The notes under the pieces were generated by a model. The model searched no databases and had not been told where the DNA came from. It worked only from the letters and a program-made list of their open reading frames with translations. From Deltaproteobacteria bacterium (GTDB taxonomy: Bacteria; Desulfobacterota; Desulfomonilia; UBA1062), in NCBI GenBank assembly GCA_017992605.1, contig JAGOOG010000001.1, positions 196,655 to 260,654 of the forward strand: a stretch of 64,000 nt of DNA, given 5' to 3'. Numbering within the stretch: position 1 is the first letter of the stretch; each line of letters begins with the position of its first letter. Below, piece by piece: positions 1 to 23,875 of this stretch. Both the position numbers and the translations under genes were made by a program.

Positions 1-1448
1 ACGATACGCGGATCGCTCAGGTCGTAGTCGAGGATGAGCAGGGGTATCCCTTTCTCGCGGCACTTCTCCCGGAGGATGCCGTTCATGGCCTGGCCGCTTT
101 TGCAGCCCACGTGGTTGGCCACCCAGACCATGTCGAGGTCGAACTGTCTCACCATGCGGAAGATGTCGTCAAGGTAGTTCTCCGCAGGCCCCCGGGTGTG
201 ACGGACCATGGGACCATGCATGACGATCCTGCTCCAGCCGCGCAGCATGGACTCGGGCGTGGCGGTGTCGATGGGTTCGAGGTGGTTGTAGCTCATGCTG
301 TCGTTCAGGATGGTCAGGCCATAGGTGCGCTCCGCCCAGTTGAATATGTCGGGGAAGTGGAGAAAGGGCGGGTTCCAGCACACCGCCCGGTACCGCTCGT
401 TCACCGTGGCAGGGAGGTTTTCTTCGAGATTCTTCCGGGCAAGCGTCACCAGACGCTCGAAGTGCTCCGTCGAGCCCCTGAACTCAGGGGTCACGTTGAA
501 ATGCCAGAGGTGGCTCATCCACACGGCCTCGCTGGCAAGGGGGCTCGGCCTCACCCGGAGCATGTCCCACAGTTCCCGCTCCAGCTCCAGCATGCGGTTG
601 CGGTTCTCGCACATCTGCCTGAAGCGGTCCCAATCCATGCGGCCCGGCGTGTGTTCCTCGAGGAATGCGATCATGCCTTTGACGTCCTCGACGAACAGGT
701 CCACGGCGCGCTCGGTATGAAAGTGATACGGAACATCGAGGCGGTAGATGGGTACGCCGAAGGCCCGCTGGAAGTAGGTGTACGAAGCCGCTCCTGCGTC
801 ACAGGGCAGGTTGGAGCTCACGACGGCCTTGCCCCCGGGCAGGTGACCCTTAAGCACCATGCCGATGGTCGCCTTGGGCAGGCTGCAGGAATCGGGATTG
901 ATCCCCTCGTTCTCCGCCTCGTCGATGTACTCCAGGCATATCTCTGGGTCCAGCATGGGAAGGACTATGCCCATGGCCTCGAGGAGATAGCACCTCAACC
1001 CCATGGCATGGGCGATGTCGGGGGGCACGAGGTCTTCGTTCACGACAAGACGCTCGGGGTCGAAGAACATCTCGCACAGCAGCCACACCGTCCCGGCGAC
1101 GATGGTGTGCATGGTCATGCAGATCGCCTCGTTATAACGGCCTGTCCTTCCCTTCAGGAACCTCCTCGACAGGGCGTTCACCTTCAGCAGTGTCAGGATC
1201 CAGGGGCTCCGTATGAGGGTCCGTACGAATCTGGCCGGGCCGAGGGTGATGGCACACTCGACGAGAAATCCGACGATGGTCGTATAATTGAGCACCCAGT
1301 ACTTCATGTACACGGCCAGGTCCTTCGATGTGTGCGCGTGGAGGAGGTATTCCGCGAGGGAGTTGTGCCAGAGTCTCCGGCCTGTTTCTCTGAGATTGGC
1401 GAGTAGATATGTCACGTTCCCGACCATGTTCTTCACGGCGTCCCTCAT
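1..1448 (-). CDS. 2-hydroxyacyl-CoA dehydratase / benzoyl-CoA reductase family, large subunit (partial, runs off left edge)
   Basis: At least 482 residues are readable from ATG 1448-1446; the 3' end lies outside the window. After an N-terminal helical extension of about 130 residues comes the family core: a segment reading GIVLPML near residue 160, SSNLPCDAG near 210, and HVGCKSGQAMNG followed by GIPLLILDYD near the edge. The last is the Cys-containing pattern of the HgdB/BcrB/BcrC fold that binds a [4Fe-4S] cluster. Its large size and N-terminal extension match the BcrB-like gene at 5725-7128. It is probably the partner of the smaller subunit encoded 10 bp upstream. The ribosome site is weak, which suggests coupled translation. 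The substrate cannot be read from the sequence. Confidence 0.8.
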   Translation of the reverse strand, partial: MRDAVKNMVGNVTYLLANLRETGRRLWHNSLAEYLLHAHTSKDLAVYMKYWVLNYTTIVGFLVECAITLGPARFVRTLIRSPWILTLLKVNALSRRFLKGRTGRYNEAICMTMHTIVAGTVWLLCEMFFDPERLVVNEDLVPPDIAHAMGLRCYLLEAMGIVLPMLDPEICLEYIDEAENEGINPDSCSLPKATIGMVLKGHLPGGKAVVSSNLPCDAGAASYTYFQRAFGVPIYRLDVPYHFHTERAVDLFVEDVKGMIAFLEEHTPGRMDWDRFRQMCENRNRMLELERELWDMLRVRPSPLASEAVWMSHLWHFNVTPEFRGSTEHFERLVTLARKNLEENLPATVNERYRAVCWNPPFLHFPDIFNWAERTYGLTILNDSMSYNHLEPIDTATPESMLRGWSRIVMHGPMVRHTRGPAENYLDDIFRMVRQFDLDMVWVANHVGCKSGQAMNGILREKCREKGIPLLILDYDLSDPRI

Positions 1449-1458
1449 TTTCAGGCCG

Positions 1459-2592
1459 CTATCTGCCGAGGCTCTCGATGAATGCCTGGACGCGGGTGCG
1501 CAGCTGGCCTTCTCCCCCGGCGGCGTACTCCCGCTCCAGTTTCAGGACAGGTACGCCATTCTTCCTGAGCGCGGCGACGAGGGGCATGGCGTCCACTCCC
1601 CAGAGGTCGCAGAACTTGATGATCTCGATGACGACACCGTCCACGCGGAATTCCTCAACCGTGTCGAGGATGGTCTTCAGCCTGCGGTCGAAGTCCTCCA
1701 TCATTCGCGGGCACAGGGTCTTCCTGAAGGTGTGCGCGGCCAGGCGCCTGATGGGGTCTCCGTCCGGTTCCACCGGGAGGAGCCCTGGGATGGAGCCCGT
1801 GCAAAACCGGTCGGCCACCACGAGCGCGCCCTGGGATTCGATGGCGGCGAGGAACGCAGGATCGTGGAGGTGCGCGCCCACCAGCATGAGGCGCGCACGA
1901 CAGTCGGCAGTGCCTTCCTCGTGTTCGATCCGGCGGTAGAGCGACAGGACGGCCGGGAGGATAAGGTCCGTGGGGGAGGCGAGACACGCCATGACGACCC
2001 GGTGGAAGTCGGCCCCTGTCAAGGGGGGGCGCGGTCTTTTCCTCAGTGCGCCCAGGGAGAGCACGACACCGGAGAAGGTGTTCCAGCAGTCGATGGCCTC
2101 CTCGAGGGAGGCAGTGCCCATGTCGACTTCGAAGTGGTCGGAGAGCCTCTGTGCCAGTATCTCCAGCTCATCGGCGAGCCACGCGGTGGTGACGTCGTTC
2201 ACCTTGCGGGGCACGTCGATGACATGGCTGAAGGCGGGTTTCGTGAGATATTCCAGGTTGTCCACGAGGCGCTGCGTGTGTGCGCACGAGGGGACGAAGA
2301 CCCACCCCCGGATGAGGTCGTAGCGGTTGTCAACGGCGAACTCGAGGAGGCTGCGCGTGTAGGAGCAGGTCAGCGCCGACATGTAGTTGTCAGCGATCTC
2401 TGTGCCCGCGACGCCGGGTGCCCTCAGGCGGACCGGGAAGAGCCGGTCCGCCATGAGCAGCGCCTCGGGCACGAAGGAGCAGGAATAGCCGATGGGTATG
2501 CGGCCGTCCCGGGAGGCCTGCTCCACGAGGGCGTTCTGGGGGCTTTCCAGGAGTTCCTCGAACAGGCGCATGGTCCCTGCTGGCACGGTCAT
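1459..2592 (-). CDS. 2-hydroxyacyl-CoA dehydratase / benzoyl-CoA reductase family, small subunit
   Basis: A protein of 377 residues. I chose ATG 2592-2590 because GGGGAG sits 7 bp upstream and the upstream gene stops 4 bp earlier; a longer frame to 2661 would overlap that gene. Family features are GYSCSFVPE near residue 35 (Cys ahead of the first Rossmann unit), ALTCSYTRSLLEF, FVPSCAHTQR and KFCDLWG near the C-terminus, then a LEREY motif. These Cys positions fit the cluster-binding subunit of HgdB/BcrC-like proteins. It forms a small/large pair with the partial gene downstream, distinct from the second pair at 5725-8258. Which pair takes electrons from which activator ATPase is unknown. Confidence 0.8.
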   Translation of the reverse strand: MTVPAGTMRLFEELLESPQNALVEQASRDGRIPIGYSCSFVPEALLMADRLFPVRLRAPGVAGTEIADNYMSALTCSYTRSLLEFAVDNRYDLIRGWVFVPSCAHTQRLVDNLEYLTKPAFSHVIDVPRKVNDVTTAWLADELEILAQRLSDHFEVDMGTASLEEAIDCWNTFSGVVLSLGALRKRPRPPLTGADFHRVVMACLASPTDLILPAVLSLYRRIEHEEGTADCRARLMLVGAHLHDPAFLAAIESQGALVVADRFCTGSIPGLLPVEPDGDPIRRLAAHTFRKTLCPRMMEDFDRRLKTILDTVEEFRVDGVVIEIIKFCDLWGVDAMPLVAALRKNGVPVLKLEREYAAGGEGQLRTRVQAFIESLGR

Positions 2593-2596
2593 GGCA

Positions 2597-3385
2597 TCAC
2601 TCCCCGGCCTTGCCCAGGAGACCCATGCCTCCGAGAATGTCGGCGACGACACCCAGTGCAAAAGAGGTCTCCGGAAGTTCCGTCAGAGACCTCCCCCTGA
2701 AGTCGAATTCCCTTATGAGGTCGTCTTCGGCGATCCATCCGTAGATGGGCAGCCCTGTCCTTGTCCTGATGTCGTCGACCTCAGAGAGATCTTTGACCCT
2801 GTTGAGCACGAGGCCCATGCTCGTGAAGTCCACCGCCCTGTTGTCGGCGGCCACGTGGGCGATGGACCCGGCGACGCCGATACCCTTGGCCGAGGTGTCC
2901 GAGACGAGGACCAGGTGGTCCACGGTCTTCATGACCCGGCGGTTGATCTGTTCCACCCCCGCCTCACCGTCGATGACGACCACGTCGAACGACCCCGCCA
3001 GCTCCACGATGATGTCCTTGAGGAGCGAATTGACCTTGCAGAAACACCCCTCGTCCTCGGGTCGCCCGATGGCGAGCATGGCGAACCCGTCCTGTTCGTG
3101 CAGCGCGCCGAACACCTCGTAATCGAGCTGTCTGAGGGTCTGGGGGGCTGCCTGAGGCATGCCCTGCCTAAGCCTGTCGATGAGGTCCTTCCTGATGTCG
3201 TCCACTGTCCTTAAGACCGTCACGCCCAGGGCCACGGCTAGGCCGCAGGCAGGGTCCGCATCGATGGCCAGGACCTTTCTGCGACCGTTCCCACTCAGGA
3301 GCTTCACCATGATGGCAGCGACGGAGGTCTTGCCCACGCCCCCCTTGCCGCACAGCGCTATTCTCGTCGTATCAGGCACGTCCAA
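2597..3385 (-). CDS. CooC-like P-loop ATPase (MinD/ParA superfamily, nickel-insertion type)
   Basis: A protein of 262 residues opening with a deviant Walker A motif, CGKGGVGKTS, at residues 12-21. AIDADPACGL follows near 40-49, and a VVVIDGEAG switch/Walker B region lies further on. A CFC motif at residues 114-116 matches in kind and position the CxC (Cys112/Cys114) by which the CODH maturation ATPase CooC1 dimerises and binds nickel. CooC proteins serve carbon monoxide dehydrogenase, but no CODH catalytic subunit is in the window. The neighbour is instead a truncated acetyl-CoA-synthase-like protein, with which it overlaps by 14 bp. I infer a metal-delivery or ATP-switch role for this cluster. 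A generic MinD-like function is the alternative. Confidence 0.75.
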   Translation of the reverse strand: MDVPDTTRIALCGKGGVGKTSVAAIMVKLLSGNGRRKVLAIDADPACGLAVALGVTVLRTVDDIRKDLIDRLRQGMPQAAPQTLRQLDYEVFGALHEQDGFAMLAIGRPEDEGCFCKVNSLLKDIIVELAGSFDVVVIDGEAGVEQINRRVMKTVDHLVLVSDTSAKGIGVAGSIAHVAADNRAVDFTSMGLVLNRVKDLSEVDDIRTRTGLPIYGWIAEDDLIREFDFRGRSLTELPETSFALGVVADILGGMGLLGKAGE

Positions 3386-4109
3386 CCTCCCTGTTTCTCC
3401 TCTGCATGGAGCGTCTTACGGCCTTGAGCTGTTCTGCATCCGCGCACACGTCCTGGTACTCGCAGTCCTCGCAGTCGGCGGTCATCTCGGCGGCCATCTT
3501 GTCCATGGCTGCGACGATCCTGCCGGCCGGGGCGACCACATCGCGCAGCGCCCTCACGTCTTCCGGCGACGAGGTGACCACGATGACCTCGATGGATCTC
3601 ACGTAGCCCTTGGTGCGGAACAGGTTCATGACGGACGAGGCAAGGATGGGCGCTGAAAAACCGGATCGGATGGCCTCGGCACTGATCCTGCACCACTCCT
3701 TCTGGTACTGGGACACGGCCCTGATCATGAACCCCTTCAGGTCGAGGTCGTACCTGAGAAGGTCAAGGTCCCGGTAGCGATCGTGGGTGTTGTCCTCGGT
3801 GAAGCCCTCCACCCCGGCCAGGACCACCTTGCCGAAGGGAAGGGACCGTTCCCCGGTCTCGGAGAAGTCCGGGCCGACAAGGGTGATGGTCCCGTCCTCG
3901 ACCAGGGACAGGTCTCCGGTCCACAGGAGGCTGCTGACGGACTCCTTATCCGGACTTCCCAGTTCGAGACCCAGGTCTTCCTTCATGACGATGCCCCTGC
4001 GACCACCCGACGGCCAGCGAACCTGTACATCCCCGGCCCGGCAGAGCCTCTGCGGCCTGGCATCGACGAATTGGCGGACCTGGCGGATGATGTCCTCAAA
4101 GAGCTCCAT
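3372..4109 (-). CDS. truncated acetyl-CoA synthase (CdhC/AcsB)-like protein
   Basis: A protein of 245 residues. The segment LELGSPDKESVSSLLWT, then EDGTITLVGPDF and LPFGKVVLAGVEGF, resembles the middle domain of the acetyl-CoA synthase beta subunit. WCRISAEAIRSGFS follows in the same order as in that family. Where full enzymes carry the A-cluster ligands, this one has CEDCEYQDVC near residues 213-222 (C-x2-C-x5-C) and then ends within about 25 residues. It therefore lacks the Cys-Gly-Cys segment that holds the proximal nickel, and carbonyl chemistry of the normal kind is unlikely. The start has AGGGA upstream and overlaps the ATPase gene by 14 bp. A structural or Fe-S role beside the dehydratase subunits is inference. 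Confidence 0.7.
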   Translation of the reverse strand: MELFEDIIRQVRQFVDARPQRLCRAGDVQVRWPSGGRRGIVMKEDLGLELGSPDKESVSSLLWTGDLSLVEDGTITLVGPDFSETGERSLPFGKVVLAGVEGFTEDNTHDRYRDLDLLRYDLDLKGFMIRAVSQYQKEWCRISAEAIRSGFSAPILASSVMNLFRTKGYVRSIEVIVVTSSPEDVRALRDVVAPAGRIVAAMDKMAAEMTADCEDCEYQDVCADAEQLKAVRRSMQRRNREVGRA

Positions 4110-4902
4110 GGTTTCCCTGGCCGGCCCCTGCAGAAAGATCGCGGGCCATTACCGCCGCCCCGAGGGCGCCTATGATCTGGGGGTCGACCTCCAGTGCGGT
4201 CAGCCTCACGCCGAGGGCCTCCTGCAGCGCGGCGAACATGCCGGTGTTCTTGGCGACTCCGCCGGTCATGGTTATCTCGCGGTCGAGTTCGATGCCGCGT
4301 GCCAGCGACGCGACCCGGTGAGCCATGGCCCGGTGAAGGCCGGCGACGATATCCGGCAGGGCCCTGCCATCGTTGATGAGCGAGATGATCTCGGTCTCTG
4401 CAAAGACCACGCACTGGTTGGAGATGGTCACCGGGTTTCCTGATGACAGCGAGATGCCGCCCATGTCCTCAAGGGGGACGCCCAGGGCCCCTGCCATGAT
4501 CTCGAGGAACCTCCCGGTTCCGGACGCGCACTTGTCGTTGTAGGCATAGCGGATGACATTGCCCTGAGCGTCGAGCCTGATGGCCTTGGCATCCTGGCCC
4601 CCTATGTCGATGACCATGCGCACTCGTGGGAGGAGCCATTGGGCCCCCCTGCCGTGACAGGCGATCTCCGACTCGACGGCCCTGGCAAAGGGTATGGAGT
4701 TCCTGCCGTACCCCGTGCCCATGCAGCATGAGATATCGCCCATGGTGAGGCCGGCAGAGGCAAGGGCCCCCCCCATGGCGTCCCTGGCGGAATCCTCCGG
4801 TTCGGGGCGCGCGAAGATGACGTTCGAGGCGAGGATCTGGCCGTTCTCCAGGATAACCGCCTTGGCGCTCAGGGAACCTACATCGCAGCCCGCAGTAATC
4901 AT
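4096..4902 (-). CDS. BadF/BadG/BcrA/BcrD-type activator ATPase (second copy)
   Basis: A protein of 268 residues of the ASKHA fold (acetate kinase/Hsp70-like). It reads AGCDVGSLSAKAV at the N-terminus (phosphate 1 loop), MGTGYGR near 61-67, VIDIGGQDAK near 97-106, and ITMTGGVAKN near 220. Cys125 (in CASGTGRFLE) and Cys164 (in SNQC) correspond to the two cysteines that, in the dimeric activator HgdC, bridge one [4Fe-4S] cluster. Such proteins hydrolyse ATP to push one low-potential electron into the dehydratase or reductase. I chose ATG 4902 because a longer frame to 5316 only shadows the neighbouring gene and the two genes share ATGA. It is similar along its whole length to the copy at 4899-5687. 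Confidence 0.9.
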   Translation of the reverse strand: MITAGCDVGSLSAKAVILENGQILASNVIFARPEPEDSARDAMGGALASAGLTMGDISCCMGTGYGRNSIPFARAVESEIACHGRGAQWLLPRVRMVIDIGGQDAKAIRLDAQGNVIRYAYNDKCASGTGRFLEIMAGALGVPLEDMGGISLSSGNPVTISNQCVVFAETEIISLINDGRALPDIVAGLHRAMAHRVASLARGIELDREITMTGGVAKNTGMFAALQEALGVRLTALEVDPQIIGALGAAVMARDLSAGAGQGNHGAL

Positions 4903-5687
4903 CTCGATGCTCCTTCCATTCTTTCCCTGGCGAAGACGGCGGCACCCAGGGCGCCGATGATCTGGGGGTCCTGGCGGAGCCTGCGGATATTGACACCGAG
5001 GAGTTTTTCGAGGGAGGAAATGACGCCCATGTTCTTGGCGACCCCGCCTGTCATGCACACATCCTTCTCGGTGCCGACGCTCCGGGCGAGGATGGCGACC
5101 CTGCCGGCCATGGCCCGGTTGACCGAAGCGGCTATGTCGGCCTTGGATTTCTTCGCGTTGAGGTGGTGTACCACCTCGGCCTGAGCCCAGACCGTGCAGG
5201 TGGAGGCCAGCTGGAGGGCTTCTCCTGCCTGGTTCGAGAGCCTTCCGAGTTCGTCGAGACTCAGGCCCATGAGCTTTGCCATGACCTCCAGGAACCTGCC
5301 CGTGCCGGCGGCGCACTTGTCGTTCGTGAAGAACTTCACCACATTGCCCCTGGCATCGACCTTTATGGCCTTGCAGTCCTGGCCGCCGATGTCGATGACG
5401 GTCCTCACCGAAGGCAGGAGCCAGTGGGCGCCCTTGGCATGGCAGGCTATCTCGGACACCACCTTGCCCACGAAGGGAACGCGGTCCCTTCCATAGCCGG
5501 TCCCCACGCAGAACTTGATATCACCGATGGACAGCCCCGATGCGGCGAGCGCCTTTTCCATGACCTCACGGGCCGATTCCTCGGGCCTGAAAGTGGAGTT
5601 GACGATTGCATGGCCGAGGATGCTCTTCTGGTTGAGTATGACTGCCTTGGTCGTCAACGAGCCGACGTCGCATCCGGCAACTATCAT
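4899..5687 (-). CDS. BadF/BadG/BcrA/BcrD-type activator ATPase (first copy)
   Basis: A protein of 262 residues with the same layout as its neighbour: AGCDVGSLTTKAV, VGTGYGR, VIDIGGQDCK, Cys125 in CAAGTGRFLE, Cys164 in ASTC and VCMTGGVAKN. Both cluster-bridging cysteines are present in both copies, so each could form a homodimer or they could pair as BcrA-BcrD. The gene follows the BcrC-like and BcrB-like genes in the order C, B, ATPase, ATPase, as in bcrCBAD and bzdNOPQ operons. Both ATPases are short (about 265 residues), nearer the Azoarcus bzdP/Q size than Thauera BcrA. They may also serve the second dehydratase-type pair downstream. Confidence 0.9.
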   Translation of the reverse strand: MIVAGCDVGSLTTKAVILNQKSILGHAIVNSTFRPEESAREVMEKALAASGLSIGDIKFCVGTGYGRDRVPFVGKVVSEIACHAKGAHWLLPSVRTVIDIGGQDCKAIKVDARGNVVKFFTNDKCAAGTGRFLEVMAKLMGLSLDELGRLSNQAGEALQLASTCTVWAQAEVVHHLNAKKSKADIAASVNRAMAGRVAILARSVGTEKDVCMTGGVAKNMGVISSLEKLLGVNIRRLRQDPQIIGALGAAVFARERMEGASR

Positions 5688-5724: not shown

Positions 5725-7128
5725 TCATGAGACGATCCCCCTCAGGTGAAGGAACTCGCCCATCTTCTCGATGGCCACGTCCCAGGACTGCACCCGGTCA
5801 TCGAAGGAATCCGAGTACATGATCAGGGTCGGGACACCGCGCCGCTCAAGGTCCCGGGCATAGGATTTCACCATGCCCCACGTATTCCTGCACCCGATGG
5901 TACCGAAATAGGCGACAAAGTCGGCGTTCAGGAGCCGGGTCATGACGAGGGTATCGTCCAGCCACATGTTGGGGGCGTCGTAGGGCCCGCGTATGGACTT
6001 CACCATGGGCATGCGGGAGTTCTGTACGGCAAGGGTTTCGATGAGGTCCTCGATGCCCCCGTTGCGTATGCGGTAGACGGCATCCTGCCGCTCGAGAGCG
6101 TATGCGGCTCCCTCTTCCCAGAATGTGCTCAGGATGCAGCCGAGGTGGGAGATCTCCTGCCGGTCGAGGAACGACCAGAACCCGAGATCCGTCGTGTAGT
6201 GATCTATGTAGGAAAAGAAGCCTCTGGCCCGCTCCTTTCCCGAGCTGGTACCGGCCTTCCCGGCGGCAGCGTTCTCCCTGACCTGCCTGAGCATGACCCT
6301 GAGCAGGTCGGTATAGTCATTCGTCCCGCCCATGAGGAAGTTGCCCGAGTATAGGAACAGGGTGAAGATGCTCGGCACCGGCGAGGGTACGATACGCTGG
6401 AGCTCGGTGAACTCGTTTATGAGTTCGGCCTGCACGGCGAGTTCGGCCACCACCTCCCTGAGGCGGTCGATGTCGAGGGTCCTGCCCGTCTGCTCCTCGA
6501 GGAACCGGACAAGACTCCAGAAATCCTGCCGGTGGAACTCGAGGGCCCTCCCGTCGGTGAGCGTGGGGGGGAAGCAGAGCTGGAAGAAGGGGATGTCCAT
6601 GTAAGCGGCGGCGAACGAGTACGAGTTTGCGTTGGTGTCGCAGATGCCCGGCGAGTCGCACACGATCATGTCCGGCCTGACCCCGAGACCCGCCAGGTAC
6701 GCGCCCAGGGCCCCGCGCTGGGATGAGCACGAGGTCTCGGTGAAGCCGACCTCGCAGCAGTAGTCGAGGTATTCCCCGGTCCCGCGCTGGAGAATGAAGG
6801 TGCCGAAGACGGTCATGGGTTCCAGCAGGAGCGGTACCACGTCGAAGGCATACAGGACGGGCGGCGCGAAGCAGAAGGTGGTCATGGCCACCTTCTTCCC
6901 CTCGTCATGGGCCTTCAGAACGTTGTTCAGGTATTTAGCGAGCAGCTTCATGAGCAGGATGCCTGCCTCGCCCTGGCTGATGATCGCGTCCAGGGCATCC
7001 CTGAAATGGGGTATGAGGGCGAGCAGCGAGTCGTATTCCTTCCTCGTGCCCTCATAGGTGCTGGAGGCATTGTGGATGATTGTCCAGACATTCCAGTCGT
7101 ATTGGTATTCCCTCGTCTCCTTCTTCAT
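5725..7128 (-). CDS. BcrB/BzdO-like subunit, 2-hydroxyacyl-CoA dehydratase family
   Basis: A protein of 467 residues, the size of BcrB-type subunits. An N-terminal helical extension of about 90 residues precedes the core TTFCFAPPVLYAF, where the Cys heads the first Rossmann unit. CCEVGFTETSCSSQRGALGA and VCDSPGICDTNANSY follow, and FGTIGCRNTWGMVKSY lies near the C-terminus. These recurring Cys motifs are those of subunits that bind a [4Fe-4S] cluster with a vacant iron site or receive electrons from the activator. It overlaps the BcrC-like gene by ATGA. No membrane segment is seen, so it should be cytoplasmic. A true 2-hydroxyacyl-CoA dehydratase subunit is an equally fair reading. Confidence 0.85.
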   Translation of the reverse strand: MKKETREYQYDWNVWTIIHNASSTYEGTRKEYDSLLALIPHFRDALDAIISQGEAGILLMKLLAKYLNNVLKAHDEGKKVAMTTFCFAPPVLYAFDVVPLLLEPMTVFGTFILQRGTGEYLDYCCEVGFTETSCSSQRGALGAYLAGLGVRPDMIVCDSPGICDTNANSYSFAAAYMDIPFFQLCFPPTLTDGRALEFHRQDFWSLVRFLEEQTGRTLDIDRLREVVAELAVQAELINEFTELQRIVPSPVPSIFTLFLYSGNFLMGGTNDYTDLLRVMLRQVRENAAAGKAGTSSGKERARGFFSYIDHYTTDLGFWSFLDRQEISHLGCILSTFWEEGAAYALERQDAVYRIRNGGIEDLIETLAVQNSRMPMVKSIRGPYDAPNMWLDDTLVMTRLLNADFVAYFGTIGCRNTWGMVKSYARDLERRGVPTLIMYSDSFDDRVQSWDVAIEKMGEFLHLRGIVS

Positions 7129-8258
7129 GCGATCCTCTCCATGAACGCATCGATGCGCATCCTGATCCTGCCGGTCTCGACCAGGGGTCCGTACTCACGC
7201 TCCATGCGCATGCAGGGGATGCCCCGGGCTTCCAGGTCACGCTCGTAGATGCCGTTCTCCGAGCCGTGCAGGTCGCAGAACCTGATGTTCTGGAGGATGA
7301 TGCCGTCCACCCGGGCACGGCGGGCACGCTCCTCGATGAAGGCGAGCCGTTCCCTGTAGTAACCGAACATGCGCGGGCAGAACTTGTGGCTCAGGTACCT
7401 CTCGGCAAGGGCCCTGACAGGGTCGGTCTTTTCGTCCACGAGGTCGTGGTAGGACCGGGAACCGAAGCACATGGTGTCGCTCACCACCACGCCGCCCGAG
7501 GACTCGATGAGCCTCATGAAATCGAGGTCGTCGCTGGAGCTTCCCACCACCATGAGGCGCTTCCTGCCGCTGGTCACGGAGGGTTCCTTTTTCAAGCCCG
7601 CAACGATCTTCTTGAGCTCACCGGTGTAGTCTTTCCGGGGCATGGCGAACCCGGCCAGCACGACGGCCGCGGCATCTTCGCCGGTCAGCGGGGTGTCGGC
7701 GGAGGACCTCATGTCGTCGAGCTCGATGAGCAGCCTGCGGCCACGGTTGTAGAGCCTGATGGACTTGCCCAGAGAGGCGGGGGATATGCTCACCCCGAAG
7801 TGCCCCTCGAGGTGCTTCATGAAGGCGCGCAACTCGTCCGCGTACCAGGCGACGCTGTAATCCGCCACCTTGTGGGGAACCCCCATATAGTGGAAGAATT
7901 TCGGGACGGTGCCGGCATAGTCTTCACCGGCCTTTCTCCAGCACTCGTCGAGCCTCCTCATGGAATCGCAGCCGTTGACGATGACCACCCCGTCAAGAAA
8001 GGAATAGTCGCCCTGTCCGGCGAGCTGGAGGATGCACTTGGGGAAGCTGCAGATCACGGGGCCGAAATAGGTGTCACCGATGGAGAGCGTGGTGGTATTG
8101 ATTCCACGGAGCCTGAACGGCAGCATGCCAGCGGCATGGATGATCTCGTCGGGCACGAAGGTGCAGGGATAGCCGATGACCTTCTTCCCCTCATCCTTCC
8201 ATTCCTGTACGGAGGTGTTGCCGATGCCCTGTGCGACAGTTCTCATCGCATCGATCAT
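7125..8258 (-). CDS. BcrC/BzdN-like subunit, 2-hydroxyacyl-CoA dehydratase family
   Basis: A protein of 377 residues. GYPCTFVPDEIIHAAGMLPFRLRG near residues 29-52 is the classic opening of HgdB/BcrC/BadD proteins. VICSFPKC, VIVNGCDSMRRL and RFCDLHGSENG (near 340) carry the remaining conserved cysteines, and the protein ends in a typical MRMEREY segment. It begins at ATGA, shared with the upstream helical protein, and ends by overlapping the BcrB-like gene. It is therefore the first catalytic gene of a translationally coupled set of four. The family membership is firm; benzoyl-CoA reductase versus dehydratase cannot be decided by eye. Confidence 0.85.
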   Translation of the reverse strand: MIDAMRTVAQGIGNTSVQEWKDEGKKVIGYPCTFVPDEIIHAAGMLPFRLRGINTTTLSIGDTYFGPVICSFPKCILQLAGQGDYSFLDGVVIVNGCDSMRRLDECWRKAGEDYAGTVPKFFHYMGVPHKVADYSVAWYADELRAFMKHLEGHFGVSISPASLGKSIRLYNRGRRLLIELDDMRSSADTPLTGEDAAAVVLAGFAMPRKDYTGELKKIVAGLKKEPSVTSGRKRLMVVGSSSDDLDFMRLIESSGGVVVSDTMCFGSRSYHDLVDEKTDPVRALAERYLSHKFCPRMFGYYRERLAFIEERARRARVDGIILQNIRFCDLHGSENGIYERDLEARGIPCMRMEREYGPLVETGRIRMRIDAFMERIA

Positions 8259-9457
8259 GACTCACCCCCCGTGGGGAGCAACGACGATTTCAGGGACGGC
8301 ACGGATGCGTCCAGAACAGGTCTTGCCGCCTCTGCGATCTCGGGGACCATCCAGGCGACGGCAGCCCTGATCTCCTCGGTGTCGAGGGAGTCGGCCACGC
8401 TCGTGAGGAAGGCCGAAAATACCTCGGGTCTGGTGTCGTGAAGACCATTCAGGACACGGACAAGGGTGTTGACTGCACGGGCGATCTCGTAGGTGTCGAG
8501 GTCTGAAAGGCCCTGCGAGACAGCATGAGCGAGGGCCTCCCGGTCCAGCTCGTCGAAAAGGCGGGCCCTGCGCGAGAAGGCCCTGAGGAGGGGGGTTGTC
8601 AGGGAACCATAGGAGGAGATCGTTTCGAGCACGAGTTCGGGGTGTTCTCTGAGCACATCGGCCAGGGCACCGGCCAGGGCCTCCCGGTCCTCGGCCAGGG
8701 CAATGCGGGCCTTTGTCAGCAGCGTCGGATCGACTGTCGGCAGCCCCTCTTTGAGCAGCGCGGTGAGGTAGACCTGGAGCAGGGGCTTACCTGCCCTTGC
8801 CAGGAGGAGGTTCCCGGTATGCAGGCGCCTGATGAACTCTGCAGAGGAGTTCACGAGCCCTGCGACCTCCCGGGCATCGACACCCCTGAGGAGAGAGAGC
8901 AGGAGGTCGGCCAGGAGGTCGGGGCCCACGTTCTTCTCGATGGGCGTCAGGAAGGTCCGCACGGAAGCGATGCCCGTATTGACCAGGGCGAGCAGGGTGC
9001 CCATGATGCTCCCCACCTTGGCCGGGTATTTCCAGAGCTGCCCGTTGAAGGCCTCCAGGGTCGCGACGAAACACCTCCGGGAGTTTTCCACCATCTCGCG
9101 GAACTCCCCGAAGTCGGTGTTCTTCATGAACCCATGAAACGCTTCTCTGCGGGATGCGGCATGGCAGACAGGGTCGGCTGCATGCTCGGCGTTGACCTGC
9201 CTGGCCCATGCGGTGAGGAGTCTCCCGGCATGGGCCGATATGCCGACGCCGTTCCCCCCGGGCCTGAAGACCTTAGAAACCACCCACCTGGCAGGGGACG
9301 CGACCCTCCTCCTGAGGCCACCCTTGTCGGCCCAGGTCTCTATGAGATCCCTGGCGATTTCGGCGATCAGTGTCTTCGCACCCGGTGAGCGGATGGTTTC
9401 CCCCACGATACCGGCCAGGACCTCAACCGGCCGCGTCCGGTTTTCAGCGGCATTCAT
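8255..9457 (-). CDS. uncharacterised all-helical protein, large paralogue of the 10138-11226 pair
   Basis: A protein of 400 residues predicted almost wholly alpha-helical, with no signal peptide, clear membrane segment or catalytic motif that I recognise. A segment near residues 170-200 (DLLADLLLSLLRGVDAREVAGLVNSS begins this stretch) aligns by eye with LLAGFVESLLADIDKDDLARLV in the 139-residue protein at 10807-11226. A further unit near 355-385 (FSAFLTSVADSLDTEEIRAA) looks like another copy of the same repeat. It is translationally coupled to the BcrC-like gene. A lipid- or acyl-CoA-related scaffold is only a guess; the function is unknown. Confidence 0.7.
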   Translation of the reverse strand: MNAAENRTRPVEVLAGIVGETIRSPGAKTLIAEIARDLIETWADKGGLRRRVASPARWVVSKVFRPGGNGVGISAHAGRLLTAWARQVNAEHAADPVCHAASRREAFHGFMKNTDFGEFREMVENSRRCFVATLEAFNGQLWKYPAKVGSIMGTLLALVNTGIASVRTFLTPIEKNVGPDLLADLLLSLLRGVDAREVAGLVNSSAEFIRRLHTGNLLLARAGKPLLQVYLTALLKEGLPTVDPTLLTKARIALAEDREALAGALADVLREHPELVLETISSYGSLTTPLLRAFSRRARLFDELDREALAHAVSQGLSDLDTYEIARAVNTLVRVLNGLHDTRPEVFSAFLTSVADSLDTEEIRAAVAWMVPEIAEAARPVLDASVPSLKSSLLPTGGES

Positions 9458-9476: not shown

Positions 9477-10124
9477 CTATTTCAGTTCGTCCAGGGCTTC
9501 TCTGCCGGCCTCTGTCATGTGCGATTCGAACATGAGGTGGCTCATGGTCGTCAGCGTCGCGATCGCCTCTTCCCGGGTGAATTTCTTCTCCATGAGATAG
9601 CTGTGGCCGAGGTGCATGGCCATTCCCACGACTGCGTAGGCCATGGTGAGCGGGTTCACCCCCTCTATGATGCCGATGTCCAGCCAGCTCTGGATGTCGT
9701 CGGCCAGGTCCTGGGCGATGTCGCTATAGTGCTTCCAGATGGTGATGTCCATCTCTTCGTCCACGCCGAAGCTTCCCCGCAGGATCATGAGAAACTGCTG
9801 GCGGTGGGAGGAAATGTAATCGAAATAGGCGCCGTAACTCGCGTTGAGCTTTTCCACCCTGTCGCCGTGGTCCCAGATGTTCACCGGCTCCCGGAGCTTC
9901 TTTATGCGGCGGCGCAGTTCGTAGAGATTCTGATGGGCGATCTGGGCGAACAGGTCGCGCTTGTCCTTGAAATAGTTGTAGAATGTCCCTGCCGACATGC
10001 CCACGGCCTTGACGATGTCCATGACCTGGGTGTTGTGGTACCCGTGGCGGCTGAACAGGTCCTCGGCCGCCCCGACGATCATGTCCCGCGTATACTGCCG
10101 TTTTCTCTCGATGAGGCTGGGCAT
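9477..10124 (-). CDS. TetR-family regulator (inside the operon)
   Basis: A protein of 215 residues from ATG 10124, chosen because GAAGGA lies 9 bp upstream; the 9-codon-longer frame would overlap the preceding gene. The N-terminal helix-turn-helix covers about residues 15-55 and includes HNTQVMDIVKAVGMSAGTFYNYF. The rest is the helical ligand domain. The recognition helix is the same as that of the second TetR protein at 14111-14767 apart from a single residue next to it (Tyr for His). TetR proteins next to acyl-CoA dehydrogenases commonly sense acyl-CoA esters, so feedback control of this operon is likely. It lies between two helical-protein genes, an unusual place for a regulator. Confidence 0.9.
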   Translation of the reverse strand: MPSLIERKRQYTRDMIVGAAEDLFSRHGYHNTQVMDIVKAVGMSAGTFYNYFKDKRDLFAQIAHQNLYELRRRIKKLREPVNIWDHGDRVEKLNASYGAYFDYISSHRQQFLMILRGSFGVDEEMDITIWKHYSDIAQDLADDIQSWLDIGIIEGVNPLTMAYAVVGMAMHLGHSYLMEKKFTREEAIATLTTMSHLMFESHMTEAGREALDELK

Positions 10125-10137
10125 CCCGACGGTTCCT

Positions 10138-10794
10138 TCAGGGGGTCGCACCTGGGCCGCGCCCCAGTCTTTTCATCAGCCTGCTCCTCGCAAACGACCA
10201 TGCCCACGAGGCGAGGTGCCACTTCTGATCGAGCATGGCGCCTGCAAGGGTTGCTGTCGCCCTGCGTGTCTCTTCGGCGTCGATCCCGGAGAGAACCCTT
10301 GCCAGGAAGGCCCTCAGAGTCAGGGGATCGACCGCATTGACGCCCCGGGTTATCCTGTTCAGACAGCCCGAGACGACGGCAGGGCCCTTTCTCAGCAAAG
10401 CCCTGCCGGCCTCGGTCCTGATGTCGGCCGATGCCTCCCAGAGCGACGACGCCAGGTTAGCCCAGGCAACACCGCACTTCCTGAGGCCGTCCCGGTCGAT
10501 CTCCCCGACAAGGCCCATGAGGAACGATCTGAGCATCTCGGGCGGATACTTCTCCTTGAGCTGAACGGCAAGCTCCGTCGACGCCGCCACCATGCCGTTG
10601 ACAACGACCGGCAGCGAGCTGACGAGGGCAAAGAAGACCTCGGGGTCCTCGCGCAGCATGGTCCTCACCATGGCGCTGCCCGTGGACGGGCTCATCTCGT
10701 TGATGTTCGTGCGGAGGATGTCCTTGAGCAGCGTGGACCTGAGCATGACGCCGAGGATGCCTGACTTGTCTCCCGCATGGGGGCCGGTACGCAT
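10138..10794 (-). CDS. uncharacterised helical protein (medium paralogue)
   Basis: A protein of 218 residues, mostly helical. The start is ATG 10794 with a strong GAGGAGG ribosome site. Residues 38-120 (from TGSAMVRTMLREDPEVFF through DRDGLRKC) align with residues 40-120 of the next protein: FVRTLLEKD / MVRTMLRED, ELIVQVREKFP / ELAVQLKEKYP, and DIDKDDL / EIDRDGL. A second copy-like unit (FLARVLSGIDAEETRRA) lies near residue 180. No enzyme motif or membrane segment was recognised. It lies between the internal TetR gene and the smaller paralogue. Confidence 0.75.
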   Translation of the reverse strand: MRTGPHAGDKSGILGVMLRSTLLKDILRTNINEMSPSTGSAMVRTMLREDPEVFFALVSSLPVVVNGMVAASTELAVQLKEKYPPEMLRSFLMGLVGEIDRDGLRKCGVAWANLASSLWEASADIRTEAGRALLRKGPAVVSGCLNRITRGVNAVDPLTLRAFLARVLSGIDAEETRRATATLAGAMLDQKWHLASWAWSFARSRLMKRLGRGPGATP

Positions 10795-10806
10795 GACGTC
10801 ACCTCC

Positions 10807-11226
10807 TCAGGATTGTCCTGCCTTGTCCTGCACCGTTTTCCACGCCGCATGGACGATCGGGCCGAGGTCCCTCGCGAGGTCGTTGAATCCGGTGACGAGA
10901 CGGGCCAGGTCATCCTTGTCGATGTCGGCAAGGAGGGATTCGACGAAGCCAGCGAGCAGCGGCGCCGGGAATTTCTCCCGCACCTGAACGATGAGCTCGC
11001 AGGCCGCCTTTATGAGGGAGTTGGCGATGGCGGGAAGCGCGCCCGTCACGGCAAGCGGGACCTCGATGTCCTTTTCCAGCAGGGTACGCACGAACAGCGG
11101 GCCGTGCTCGGGATCGATGTCCTTCAGGAAGAGCCTCAGGCTCTCCTTGAAGGCGGTCTTGCCGAGGACCTCACCCAGGACGTCGGCCTTGGTCTCTATG
11201 AAACCTCTGCGTGCATGGTCTTCCAC
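10807..11226 (-). CDS. uncharacterised helical protein (small paralogue)
   Basis: A protein of 139 residues beginning at GTG 11226, with GAGGTG upstream that overlaps the end of the acyl-CoA dehydrogenase gene. It is all-helical and clearly homologous to the 218-residue neighbour and to parts of the 400-residue protein. It may represent the basic unit of the family: an amphipathic helix pair, a conserved ELxxQxxEKxP stretch, then LxxxDIDxDDLARL. Placement between acyl-CoA dehydrogenases and reductase subunits suggests a role with those enzymes, but the sequence names none. Confidence 0.75.
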   Translation of the reverse strand: MEDHARRGFIETKADVLGEVLGKTAFKESLRLFLKDIDPEHGPLFVRTLLEKDIEVPLAVTGALPAIANSLIKAACELIVQVREKFPAPLLAGFVESLLADIDKDDLARLVTGFNDLARDLGPIVHAAWKTVQDKAGQS

Positions 11227-11235
11227 GGCATCACC

Positions 11236-12510
11236 TCAGATGGTCTCGCAGTTGAAGAAGTAGCGGGCCGCCTCCATCTGGCAGAGCTGTTTGCCGCCCA
11301 TCCAGAGCTGGATGATCTTGATGTCCCGCCAGTGCTTCTCGATGTCCCATTCGCGGTCCGCGCCGTAATGGCCAAGAACGTCCATGGCCCGCCCGAAAAT
11401 GTCCACGGCCCGGTCCGACATGAAGTCCTTGATGTTGCGGATCCTGCCCACCACGTCTTCGGAGATCAGGGGTTTCCCGTAGGGCTTGTTGCGACGGTCG
11501 CCGATCATGGCGGCCTCGTAGCCGAGGATGCGGCAGATGTCGATGTCGCCGGCTATCCGGCCTATGAAGGCGGCGACGGCGTCGTTCTCCTTGAGGGGGC
11601 GGTTGCCATACGTGCGGGTGGACACGAACTCACCGAGACGTTCGTACAGGTTCATCATGGCGCCGGTCAGGAAGGCGCAGCTCATGACCTGGCCGAAGGA
11701 GATGATCTGATAGAAGGCCTCGGCGTCTCTGCCCGGTCCGTGGGCCCGGTACCACGAGGGCACGCGCACGTCCTCGAACCAGATGTCGCTGTTCTTGTCC
11801 GCGGCCATGCCCGCCTTCTCGTACGCGCCTCCCTGGGTGACGCCGGGCAGAGCCGCAGGGACATAGATGAAGGCGAAGTCCCGGGGATCGGAGGAGCCCG
11901 GGTTCGTGGTGCACGGAACGCCGAAGAGGCTGGCAACACCGCCCGAGTTGGTCGGCCAGAGCTTGTGGCCGTTGATGACCCACTGGTCTCCTTCGAGGCG
12001 GGCCGTGGTGCGGATGGTCTTGCCTCCGAGCAGTCCCAGGTTCTCGATGTCGGCCCCGCCCTGGGGCTCTGTCATGGCGTTGGCGGCGAACACGGCCTTC
12101 CTGGCGTTGCAGAACATGGGCGCGAACTCGGCGATGAGCCGGTCGTTCACGTAGGGTTCCACCGTGATCACGATGAGAGGCCAGAACGTGACGGCCAGCG
12201 CCACGGCCATGCCCGTGTCGGCCCTGCCGAGTTCCTCGCAGAGCATGTAGCCCACCCGGAATACGGAGTCGGACTTGGCCAGGCCCCAGCCGCCGTGCTC
12301 CTGGGGGAAGAGGGCCTTCTGGAGGCCGAGGTCGACCATGAGGCGGTCAAAGGCAGGCCCTATGAGGCGATGATCCTTCCAGTCCTCGTCGTACCTGCGG
12401 CGCTCGGGCATGACCCACGTTTCGAGGTGATTCCTCATGACGCGGCGGAAGTGTCGGTCAAAGGGGGATATGTATTCCTCAGGCCTGGAAAAATCGTCGA
12501 TACCCTTCAT
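11236..12510 (-). CDS. acyl-CoA dehydrogenase family protein
   Basis: A protein of 424 residues with the acyl-CoA dehydrogenase layout: N-terminal helices, a FAANAMTEPQGGAD flavin/substrate motif near 140-155, the beta domain to about 245, and a C-terminal helical domain. The C-terminal signature reads WDIEKHWRDIKIIQLWMGG, where the usual enzyme has RDAKIxxIYEGT. The Glu that abstracts the alpha proton in most family members is thus replaced. I see no clear Glu at the alternative position used by isovaleryl-CoA dehydrogenase. It is FAD-dependent and oxidises acyl-CoA or a cyclic analogue; the substrate is unknown. It is paired with the gene at 12526-13767. Confidence 0.85.
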   Translation of the reverse strand: MKGIDDFSRPEEYISPFDRHFRRVMRNHLETWVMPERRRYDEDWKDHRLIGPAFDRLMVDLGLQKALFPQEHGGWGLAKSDSVFRVGYMLCEELGRADTGMAVALAVTFWPLIVITVEPYVNDRLIAEFAPMFCNARKAVFAANAMTEPQGGADIENLGLLGGKTIRTTARLEGDQWVINGHKLWPTNSGGVASLFGVPCTTNPGSSDPRDFAFIYVPAALPGVTQGGAYEKAGMAADKNSDIWFEDVRVPSWYRAHGPGRDAEAFYQIISFGQVMSCAFLTGAMMNLYERLGEFVSTRTYGNRPLKENDAVAAFIGRIAGDIDICRILGYEAAMIGDRRNKPYGKPLISEDVVGRIRNIKDFMSDRAVDIFGRAMDVLGHYGADREWDIEKHWRDIKIIQLWMGGKQLCQMEAARYFFNCETI

Positions 12511-12525
12511 AACACGCCCCTCCCG

Positions 12526-13767
12526 TCACAACTCGGTGCAGTCGTAGAAGAACCTGGCTGTGTCCATCTTCACCGGAACCTCGGCAGCGACGCCGCAGAG
12601 CACGGACTGGATGGTCTTGACGTCGCGCCAGTGCTTCTCAACGTGCCACTCCTTGGCGTAGCCCGCCGATCCCATGAGTTCGAGCCCCCGGTTCATGGCC
12701 CGCATGACGCCCTGCTGGATGCGGGAGCCGATCATGCCTGCATAGGTGAAGGTGCGCCTGAGAGATGGACCGCCAAGCGCTCCCGGCCGTGCGATCAACG
12801 AGGCAAGGTCATGGGCCAGGATCTTTGCAAGGGCGATCTCCTCTGCCACGTCTGCGAGGACCGATGCACAGAGGGGGTTTTCCTTGAGTCTTGTGCCGCC
12901 CTTGATGACCCGGTTGTCGCTCCAGTCCGCGAGCAGCTCGAAGAAGTTTGTGGCCGCGCCGACGCTCACACCGCCGAGCAGCAGATTCAGCCAGGAGTAG
13001 AGTTCTTCGACCGCGCCGGGATAATCGATCACGTGGTCCTTGGGGATCTCGACGCCGTCAAGGCTCACCTCTGCGTTTGTGCATGCGTTGAGGCCGGTGG
13101 TGAGCAGGGCGCCGCCCCTCCTGATCCCCCGGGCATCCCCCGGGATCAGGGCGATGCAGGGCATGCCCTTCGCGTCGGCACACACCGTGCAGAAGAGGTC
13201 GGCCCGGGAGCCTGCGAAGAGCGGCCGCAGACCGGCCCCGGTTATGGTGCACGATCCCCCCTCCAGGGTCGCCCTGGCAGCTATGGACCGTCCCAGGAAG
13301 AGGGCGGATTCTTTCCCGCTGAACCCTGCGCCGGGCAGGATGACGGCAGGTGTTCTCGGCTGGTCCCCGCTACCTGATGACGGGAAGGAGCGGCAGAGGA
13401 CCTCGCTGGAGTTGTGTTCCATGCAGAAGAGGGTGCAGATGGAACAAGACGCTGCCAACAGGGCGCCTGCCGAGGCGTCGGCCCTGCCGATTTCGCAGGC
13501 GAGGGTCAGCAGGCCCGGTGCACGGCCGGGGCTGTTCCACCCGAACCCGCCCTGTTCTGCAGGAATGCAGAGCTTTTCGAGGCCGATGTCCATGCAGAGC
13601 ATCCGGCGCTTGGTCTCGAAGAGATGGTCGTACCCCTGACGGTACTCCATGCGCTTCGAGACGATCTCCCTGTCCGCCCACTGGCGCACGAGCCTGACCA
13701 CACCGACACACTCCTCGTCCATCCATTCCCTGGGGCAGACGAAAAGATCATCCACGATCCTGTTCAT
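12526..13767 (-). CDS. acyl-CoA dehydrogenase family protein, divergent; first gene of the operon
   Basis: A protein of 413 residues. ATG 13767 is preferred because GGAGG sits 5 bp upstream; a frame to 13809 exists without a good site. The N- and C-terminal helical domains resemble the neighbouring dehydrogenase (WHVEKHWRDVKTIQSVLCG at the end). The middle domain is poorly conserved and the TEP.GG flavin motif is not evident. The C-terminal catalytic Glu is also absent. It may be a non-catalytic or specialised partner in a hetero-oligomer with the 424-residue protein. Its 5' leader of about 240 nt is unusually long. Confidence 0.8.
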   Translation of the reverse strand: MNRIVDDLFVCPREWMDEECVGVVRLVRQWADREIVSKRMEYRQGYDHLFETKRRMLCMDIGLEKLCIPAEQGGFGWNSPGRAPGLLTLACEIGRADASAGALLAASCSICTLFCMEHNSSEVLCRSFPSSGSGDQPRTPAVILPGAGFSGKESALFLGRSIAARATLEGGSCTITGAGLRPLFAGSRADLFCTVCADAKGMPCIALIPGDARGIRRGGALLTTGLNACTNAEVSLDGVEIPKDHVIDYPGAVEELYSWLNLLLGGVSVGAATNFFELLADWSDNRVIKGGTRLKENPLCASVLADVAEEIALAKILAHDLASLIARPGALGGPSLRRTFTYAGMIGSRIQQGVMRAMNRGLELMGSAGYAKEWHVEKHWRDVKTIQSVLCGVAAEVPVKMDTARFFYDCTEL

Positions 13768-13861
13768 GGCGCCTCCGGACATCTCGGGATCGAGACAGGG
13801 TAGAGACAACTGTGATAAAGGGGCCTGACCGTGCGTTCCCGTGGAGCATGAGGCCCATCAT

Positions 13862-15042: not shown

Positions 15043-15801
15043 ATGAGGCGTTACAGTCTTTTCACGGCAGTCTGTTTCATGTTCATTTTCATAACGGCAA
15101 CCATTGCTCCATCATATCTCTATGCAGCGGAGAAGAAGGTCGTGGTCGCAACGGACGCCACCTGGCCTCCCATGGAGATGCTGGATGCCAGCAAGAACAT
15201 CATCGGCTTCGACATTGACTTCATGAATGCGGTGGCCAAGGAGGCGGGGTTCAAGGTCGAGTTCAAGAACACCGCGTGGGACGGCATCTTCGCCGGGCTC
15301 GACACGAACAACTACGATGCGGTCATCTCCTCGGTCACCATCACGGAAGAGCGCCAGAAGAAATACGACTTTTCGCTTCCCTACATCAATGCCGGCCAGG
15401 TCCTCGTGGTCCCCAAGACCACCAAGGGCGTGAAGGCGCTGGCCGACATGAAGGGAAAGAAGATCGGCGCCCAGATCGGGACCACCGGTGCCATGGAGAT
15501 CCAGAAGGTCAAGGGCGTTGAGCTCAAAAACTACGACGAGATCGGACTCGCCTTCGAGGACATGGCCTCGGGCAGGATCCACGGCGTGGTGTGCGATACG
15601 CCGGTGGCTGCAGACTATGCGCTCCAGAGGGCTGAATACAAGGCCAAGTTCATGATCGTGGGAGAGCCTTTCACCCAGGAACAGTACGGCGTCGTGGTGA
15701 AGAAGGGCAACAAGCAGCTCGTGGACCTTCTGAACAAGGGGATCAAGGCCGTTCAGAGCAAGGGCATCAACAAAGAGCTTGAAAAGAAGTGGCTGAGATA
15801 A
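15043..15801 (+). CDS. polar amino-acid ABC transporter, periplasmic binding protein
   Basis: A protein of 252 residues of the family 3 solute-binding fold (GlnH/ArtJ/HisJ type). A signal peptide of about 27 residues ends at YLYAA. Mature landmarks are ATDATWPPMEM near 36-46, GFDIDFMNAVAKEAG, and the ligand-contact region AVISSVTITEERQKKYDFSLPY near 93-114. A later GTTGA motif fits the amino-acid/carboxylate contact. The ribosome site GAGGGGG is strong. It is followed directly by permease and ATPase genes, so it is the capture subunit of one importer. The substrate is probably a polar or basic amino acid; the exact one is not readable. Confidence 0.9.
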   Translation: MRRYSLFTAVCFMFIFITATIAPSYLYAAEKKVVVATDATWPPMEMLDASKNIIGFDIDFMNAVAKEAGFKVEFKNTAWDGIFAGLDTNNYDAVISSVTITEERQKKYDFSLPYINAGQVLVVPKTTKGVKALADMKGKKIGAQIGTTGAMEIQKVKGVELKNYDEIGLAFEDMASGRIHGVVCDTPVAADYALQRAEYKAKFMIVGEPFTQEQYGVVVKKGNKQLVDLLNKGIKAVQSKGINKELEKKWLR

Positions 15802-16607
15802 CCCCGAAGAGATTCGGAAAGAAGAAGATCGAGGAACCGAAGAAGGTTCTCATCGATGTCGGCGACGGGGCCGCCATCCCCACCAAGGAGGATGTCGGCC
15901 TCTTCACCGCGTGGCGGGTGGCCTTCTTCGGTGCCATTGCACTGACCGTTTTTCTCTGCGTCTACAAGCCTGATCCCTACCTCGAAATCATGAGGTTCGT
16001 CCCGGACGGGATCCTGGTGACCTTCGAGGTCACGGTGCTGTCCATCCTGCTTGCCCTGGTCATAGGCCTGTTCACGGGCCTAGGAAGGATATCCAGGAAT
16101 CCCGTCATCAACGGCATCGCATCGCTTTACGTCGAGGTCATCCGGGGTATTCCCCTGCTCGTACAGCTTTTCTACATCTATTTCGGGCTGGGGCGCTTCG
16201 TCCAGCTGCCGCCGCTGCCGAGCGCGGTCATCGCCATGGCCGTATGCTACGGCGCCTACATGGGAGAGATATTCAGGGCCGGCATACAGTCGATCCCCAA
16301 GGGCCAGACCGAGGCCGCACGATCTCTCGGCATGACACCGGCCCAGTCCATGTACCACGTCATCCTGCCCCAGGCGGTCAAGACCATTCTGCCGCCGGTG
16401 GGGAACGAGTTCGTGGCCCTGCTCAAGGATTCCTCCCTCGTGTCGATCCTGGCCGTGGCCGATCTGCTCAGGCGAGGCAGGGAGTTCGCGTCCCAGAGCT
16501 TCACGTATTTCGAGACCTATACCATGGTTGCGCTCGTGTACCTCATGATCACCCTGTTTTTCTCGAAGCTCATCAGCCACATGGAGGAAAAGATCAGTGC
16601 AGAATAA
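15789..16607 (+). CDS. polar amino-acid ABC transporter, permease
   Basis: A protein of 272 residues starting at GTG 15789, overlapping the binding-protein gene by 13 bp. A charged N-terminal tail of about 45 residues precedes a first membrane segment ([16 protein letters not shown]). A further hydrophobic set and the EAA loop follow, the loop reading [22 protein letters not shown] near 175-196, where the ATPase docks. [17 protein letters not shown] is typical of HisM/GlnP permeases. A single permease gene implies a homodimer in the membrane. The long cytoplasmic N-terminal tail is longer than usual for this family. Confidence 0.9.
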
Positions 16608-20446: not shown

Positions 20447-20578
20447 AAAGACAGGTTTCGGGAAATTGTCGAAAGTCCTTGAGCCTCTTCTCCCCAGGAC
20501 AGTCAATCGAGGGGCAAGGGGATCAATTCGTTCAGGAAATACGGGTTATTACAGGTGAGCACAGGCAAGAAAAAGAAA

Positions 20579-23839: not shown

Positions 23840-23875
23840 CGAGGGCCCTGGTTTTGAAGAAAATGACGAGGAATC

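Follow-up and report, generated by a model that had tools for sequence, protein, structure and literature searches.

A conserved short protein homologous to the acetyl-CoA synthase middle domain, encoded with benzoyl-CoA-reductase-like genes and lacking the nickel site

In this report, we describe a protein of 245 amino acids (ACSs) that, as judged from sequence and from a predicted model, shares homology with the middle domain of acetyl-CoA synthase (ACS), ends before the ACS nickel site and is encoded within an operon for an ATP-driven, benzoyl-CoA-reductase-like system. The window, that is, the whole stretch of DNA that was analysed, comprises 64,000 nt from Deltaproteobacteria bacterium (assembly GCA_017992605.1, contig JAGOOG010000001.1, positions 196,655-260,654 of the forward strand; source genome G000), and the short form recurs in 46 further loci of anaerobic bacteria from about ten families of one phylum. 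The evidence on its role leans to a system-specific subunit, short of proof, and we tentatively favour the reading that ACSs serves a reductase resembling class I benzoyl-CoA reductase as an accessory or electron-relay Fe-S subunit specific to that system.

Sequence profiles and structure prediction agree on the identity of the domain. Pfam CdhC (PF03598) matches ACSs residues 41-180 above its curated cut-off (E = 5.7e-10), and a PDB search with a profile of 29 short forms gave ACS chains as the only confident matches (best 9c0s, E = 2.9e-19); the relation to CdhC/AcsB proposed in an earlier, sequence-only reading of this DNA is therefore borne out. The NCBIfam ACS models are matched in their middle stretch only (profile positions 18-177 of 460-464 and 310-485 of 705-710), far under the curated equivalog cut-offs (33 of 356 bits and 30 of 800 bits). 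The AlphaFold2 model (pLDDT 88.4, pTM 0.79) shows the ACS middle domain and, after it, two helices joined by a loop that holds a cysteine motif, and only ACS was matched by it below E = 0.001 in Foldseek (best 6e-11). In a structural comparison with VIA, which covered the top 1000 Foldseek chains, residues 27-206 of the model matched residues 317-495 of Moorella ACS at Z = 19.8 (rmsd 2.2, 172 residues) and the best unrelated chain reached Z = 3.7; the middle domain is nearly the whole folded part of ACSs. A PD-(D/E)XK match over the cysteine motif (E = 0.048) fell under the cut-off and was read as a chance likeness of cysteine motifs.

With the middle (A2) domain of ACS (AcsB/CdhC), ACSs has in common this fold, the profile match and the first cysteines after the domain; unlike ACS, it has no N-terminal domain and no nickel domain, and the short forms carry three, or alternatively four, cysteines. 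The loop of ACSs lies between helices H182-209 and H219-244 of the model, and its C213, C216 and C222 fall on conserved ACS cysteine columns in a joint MAFFT alignment with five full-length ACS, positions that we take to be C506, C509 and C518 of Moorella ACS. By this alignment the triad represents three of the four cysteines of the A-cluster cubane, the fourth, downstream one being missing. Moorella ACS has its fourth cubane ligand, C528, and its nickel ligands, C595-G-C597, further downstream, and ACSs terminates upstream of all of these. The Cys-Gly-Cys that binds two nickel ions, seen in methanogen ACS as Cys278 and Cys280 flanking Gly279 (PMC11474084), is absent from all 245 residues of ACSs, as the sequence-only reading had stated. 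This absence, together with linkage to activators and CooC rather than to CODH, argues against any ACS chemistry, in support of the earlier expectation that the known chemistry should be impossible.

The triad is invariant in 47/47 short forms, some of which share only 22% identity with the window ACSs, and on these alignments its conservation is more than chance. In the clade of the window the loop holds three cysteines only, with D or E always directly before the first; the exceptions are one member with an extra cysteine 2 residues upstream and one with a cysteine 10 residues upstream. Short forms outside this clade have an added cysteine 4-6 residues upstream, giving C-x3-5-C-x2-C-x5-C, so that these four-Cys relatives likely possess a complete [4Fe-4S] motif. 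Thus, the earlier description of an A-cluster-like cysteine set stands in part: three cubane ligands align, but the fourth is missing, and relatives use a different, upstream fourth cysteine. In the tree, the three-Cys forms group in a single supported clade (96/90; 28 rows), and a very long, fully supported branch sets the five ACS apart, although the long branches leave deep placements unsure.

Table 1. Features of the ACSs operon in the window (positions from the first nucleotide of the window)
Feature	Positions	Strand	Evidence
Second HgdB-like subunit, cut by the window edge; the whole 507-aa protein is present in L064, where a third activator follows	1-1448	-	
Second HgdC-like subunit	1459-2661	-	PF06050 1.3e-74
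CooC-like P-loop ATPase; Walker A GKGGVGKT, CxC at C114/C116 (about 3038-3046)	2597-3385	-	CooC1 3kje 2.5e-16
ACSs, short ACS-middle-domain protein, 245 aa	3372-4109	-	Pfam, NCBIfam, PDB profile, AlphaFold2, Foldseek
ACSs C213-x2-C216-x5-C222, predicted Fe-S loop between two helices	3444-3473	-	Invariant 47/47; model
ACSs residues 27-206, predicted to fold as ACS middle domain	3492-4031	-	VIA Z 19.8 to 1oao 317-495
Activator ATPase A (BcrA/BcrD/HgdC type)	4096-4908	-	TIGR00241 2.3e-66; cluster cysteines 127, 166
Activator ATPase B	4899-5687	-	TIGR00241 1e-70
HgdB/BzdO-like catalytic subunit; Cys134, 163, 413 conserved	5725-7128	-	PF06050 4.2e-39
HgdC/BzdN-like subunit; six double-cubane-type cysteines	7125-8258	-	PF06050 9.4e-89; BzdN 8s02 1.4e-45
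Conserved all-helical operon protein	8255-9457	-	No significant Pfam/NCBIfam family; helical model
TetR-type regulator	9477-10151	-	PF00440 2.7e-16
Two mutually related small proteins (10138-10794 and 10807-11226)	10138-11226	-	Profile hits
Two acyl-CoA-dehydrogenase-like genes (11236-12510 and 12526-13809)	11236-13809	-	PF00441/PF02770 (first); profile hits (both)

In the direction of transcription, the operon (Table 1) runs through two acyl-CoA dehydrogenases, two small genes, TetR, the helical protein, HgdC, HgdB, two activators, ACSs, CooC and a second HgdC and HgdB, and a third activator extends it beyond the window (L064); the ACSs gene overlaps its neighbours. By sequence, the reductase set is laid out like class I benzoyl-CoA reductase (BzdNOPQ/BcrCBAD), with a BzdN-like subunit, a BzdO-like subunit and two activator genes retaining the cluster cysteines. 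The cysteines of the window HgdC-like subunit align with BzdN residues 36, 73, 100, 263, 293 and 327, described as ligands of the [8Fe-9S] cluster (PMC11971306), and all six are kept in 43/43 HgdC-like neighbours. The HgdB-like neighbours keep three cysteines, like BzdO, and no BzdO chain was returned by a PDB search with the BzdO-like subunit; both activator cluster cysteines are invariant (65/65). This retention of BzdN/BzdO-type cluster cysteines in the partner subunits supports the reading of ACSs as a reductase subunit. The operon differs from BzdNOPQ/BcrCBAD in its extra ACS-type protein and CooC-like ATPase, and every window subunit scores below the bcr/bzd NCBIfam equivalog cut-offs. 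The six-Cys pattern of the HgdC-like partner is also that of the double-cubane-cluster protein (DCCP), from which the window differs in having a two-subunit catalytic component and a score below the double_cubane cut-off. Two further candidates for the same system were set aside, namely the benzene-activation cluster of Desulfobacterota (PMC13101534), which has different genes, and the mlp cluster (PMC10418091), which is different.

The longer form of the operon includes three conserved proteins without a known family, namely the helical protein, whose model had no PDB match, and the two small proteins. Just past the operon lies an amino-acid-type ABC transporter (binding protein, permease and ATPase; 15043-17340, + strand), and the window further contains a Matrixin-like (Peptidase_M10) metalloprotease (19511-20506, - strand) and an HlyD-type adaptor with an AcrB-type RND efflux pump (22709-26968, + strand).

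The sequence-only reading had called the protein truncated; a degenerate truncation is not what we find, and ACSs instead represents a stable, widespread family. Across a sample of 395 genomes of the phylum, short forms and ACS are separated by a score gap without overlap (E below 1e-50 and above 1e-22, respectively), and their open frames are mostly 240-350 aa and 730-790 aa. Short forms occur in families f1, f3, f11, f13, f15, f32, f33, f37, f50 and f62, with a divergent one in f2 (L043); two named short-form loci are labelled Deltaproteobacteria, one scan of genome contigs gave only two close relatives, and a plasmid search gave no match. A frameshift hiding the C-terminal half, which had been raised as a possible objection, is excluded by the overlap of the CooC-like reading frame with the end of ACSs, by the ends of the relatives, which stop at the same point, and by the absence of another ACS C-terminal domain from G000. 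Likewise, a split ACS was rejected, since no separate ACS nickel domain was found in the 14 genomes checked, G000 included. ACS has CODH and CFeSP partners, whereas G000 (98.5% complete) contains no full ACS, no CdhD match for CFeSP and only a weak CODH match (26.5 of 478 bits). A cryptic CODH partner was thus rejected for G000 and most of its family by the CODH search; CODH is present in two members of that family (G013 and G023) and in many distant genomes, some of which hold the short form plus genuine ACS and CODH. A functionless ACS remnant, or half of a split ACS with its nickel domain elsewhere, would agree with a homology that spans the middle domain only, but is scarcely credible given the lack of other ACS domains in the 14 genomes, the lack of CODH and CFeSP in G000 and the conservation of invariant residues over about ten families.

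Two side observations concern short or weak matches elsewhere. The weak CODH match in the window (28419-28898; G000:C34:225073-225552, - strand) covers the C-terminal part of CODH within a 712-codon frame. Most genomes of the G000 family have weak matches of this kind as well, lying in frames of about 545-570 codons; these matches are possibly hybrid-cluster-like. In G088, G065, G272 and others, ACS matches lie in frames of only about 405-430 aa, some with internal stops.

In the 46 further loci we again find the order HgdC, HgdB, activator(s) and ACSs, in many cases together with CooC, or a rearranged version of this order. We counted neighbours within 7.5 kb at the 34 well-flanked loci, those with at least 2.5 kb on each side. 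Both HgdB and HgdC are near the short form at 30/34 of them (18/20 three-Cys and 12/14 four-Cys loci), which answers the search for the short form beside reductase genes that the earlier reading had proposed. Any one of the reductase components (activator, HgdB or HgdC) is near at 32/34. The two exceptions, L104 and L042, form with the less well flanked L041 one four-Cys clade in f13, in which an acyl-CoA dehydrogenase adjoins the short form without HgdB or HgdC; this clade argues against a reductase subunit. L104 and L042 also encode a DctP-type binding protein close to the short form, and L104 has a CoA-transferase III gene there too. Two or more activators are near in 20/20 three-Cys versus 2/14 four-Cys loci, most four-Cys forms having a single one, and CooC is near in 19/20 and 7/14, respectively, counts that are not independent of ancestry because the three-Cys state arose once; since the three-Cys forms are one clade, their association with activator type represents one event, not many. 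The operon and the lack of CODH in G000 support the earlier view that ACSs in the window is coupled with activator ATPases and a CooC-like gene and not with CODH.

The CooC-like neighbours keep a deviant Walker A motif and the CxC motif (34/34 aligned). The window ATPase resembles the nickel-insertion ATPases CooC/AcsF in both motifs and in its best PDB match, CooC1, and differs from them in its setting, a reductase operon whose genome contains neither CODH nor full ACS; its client must therefore be something else. G000 contains two other reductase loci: in L109, HgdC, HgdB, two activators and CooC are present and ACSs is missing, and L110 has neither CooC nor ACSs. Thus, CooC and ACSs are two separate add-ons to this reductase type rather than one unit, and a CooC dedicated to ACSs alone was rejected. 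The coupling to CooC proposed by the sequence-only reading holds insofar as a CooC-like gene adjoins ACSs, but it is not specific to ACSs, given L109 and several ACS-like operons without CooC. The CooC-like ATPase of L109 (G000:C3; L109 4976-10480) keeps the CxC, and CooC-type ATPases may serve benzoyl-CoA-reductase-like systems more widely.

These observations bear on two alternatives that involve the CooC-like ATPase. According to the main rival, which we consider somewhat unlikely, ACSs would be a dedicated Fe-S assembly or loading factor, whose three-Cys hairpin passes a labile [4Fe-4S] cluster to the reductase or its activators with help from the CooC-like ATPase. The near-constant presence of this CxC-bearing ATPase at three-Cys loci (19/20) suits such a role, and three cysteines with an open site would resemble scaffold proteins; gene neighbourhood cannot tell a subunit from a dedicated assembly factor. 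However, nearby CooC is missing from half of the well-flanked four-Cys loci, it occurs without a short form in L109, so that the two genes separate freely, and other reductases in the same cell have no ACSs in their operons. In addition, BzdNO made in E. coli obtains both its [8Fe-9S] and its [4Fe-4S] cluster, apparently with no such factor supplied (PMC11971306), and hence no dedicated factor seems needed for such clusters. In a second alternative, CooC would deliver nickel to the open site of the three-Cys cluster, generating a one-nickel cluster distinct from the A-cluster. CooC1 is a nickel-binding ATPase that binds Zn or Ni through its CxC cysteines (PMC6006190), a motif kept in all 34 aligned neighbours, and the three-Cys clade nearly always has CooC; we nevertheless regard this variant as very improbable, because the ACS nickel ligands are gone from ACSs except for the aligned bridging position, because nickel binding by all CooC is unclear even for CooC proper (PMC6006190) and because CooC is also present in the L109 operon.

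A subunit role is favoured because ACSs is system-specific, because its gene overlaps its neighbours and because its cysteine motif tracks activator type; the two other G000 reductase loci without ACSs also fit a subunit better than a general maturation factor. Our working model is that ACSs would be a stand-alone ACS middle domain with a short C-terminal helical hairpin carrying a Cys-ligated Fe-S cluster, acting as an accessory subunit of an ATP-dependent reductase that comprises an HgdC/BzdN-like double-cubane subunit, an HgdB/BzdO-like active-site subunit and paired activators. Its most likely task would be docking on the CoA-thioester reductase or its activator, a contact that we infer, and it may relay low-potential electrons through its cluster, presumably a [4Fe-4S] cluster whose fourth ligand in the three-Cys clade could come from the invariant D/E directly before C213, from solvent or from a partner protein. 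Three-Cys clusters are, on the other hand, seen more typically in scaffold or substrate-binding roles than in simple relays. Interaction of CoA with the ACS middle domain has been reported (PMC12289521); by analogy, ACSs may keep this CoA-binding surface, which would suit docking on a CoA-ester enzyme. The same reported contact, the share of the middle domain in the folded part of ACSs and partner enzymes that by family act on CoA esters would equally accord with a CoA-thioester docking or regulatory subunit in which the Fe-S motif is purely structural. We think this unlikely, since the invariance of the triad over deep divergence and the tracking of activator type by the three- and four-Cys forms point to something beyond a structural site.

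Since Pfam already detects the domain, the homology by itself is no novelty; what is new is a separate short-form family, its two cysteine types and its linkage to reductases. Among the open-access papers searched, a scope outside which most subscription journals lie, none described a stand-alone ACS domain lacking nickel within reductase operons. Across the structure libraries searched, the ACSs fold is otherwise found only in ACS, and a conserved, nickel-free, stand-alone copy tied to ATP-dependent radical reductases and found in a CODH-less genome shows that the ACS middle domain has an independent life; it appears from the sequences that an ancient carbon-fixation fold has been put to another use. 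A bolder and quite improbable proposal is that the middle domain, either older than nickel ACS or split off from it, works together with a CooC-type ATPase as a subunit that provides ATP-driven radical reductases with a dedicated metallocluster, perhaps a three-Cys cluster taking an extra metal; if true, it would define a new cluster class where the ACS and benzoyl-CoA-reductase systems meet. For annotation, a CdhC match plus a CooC match does not imply Wood-Ljungdahl metabolism. ACSs offers a handle on the middle domain's own role, be it docking, CoA contact or electron transfer, and marks benzoyl-CoA-reductase-like systems with a component absent from current models.
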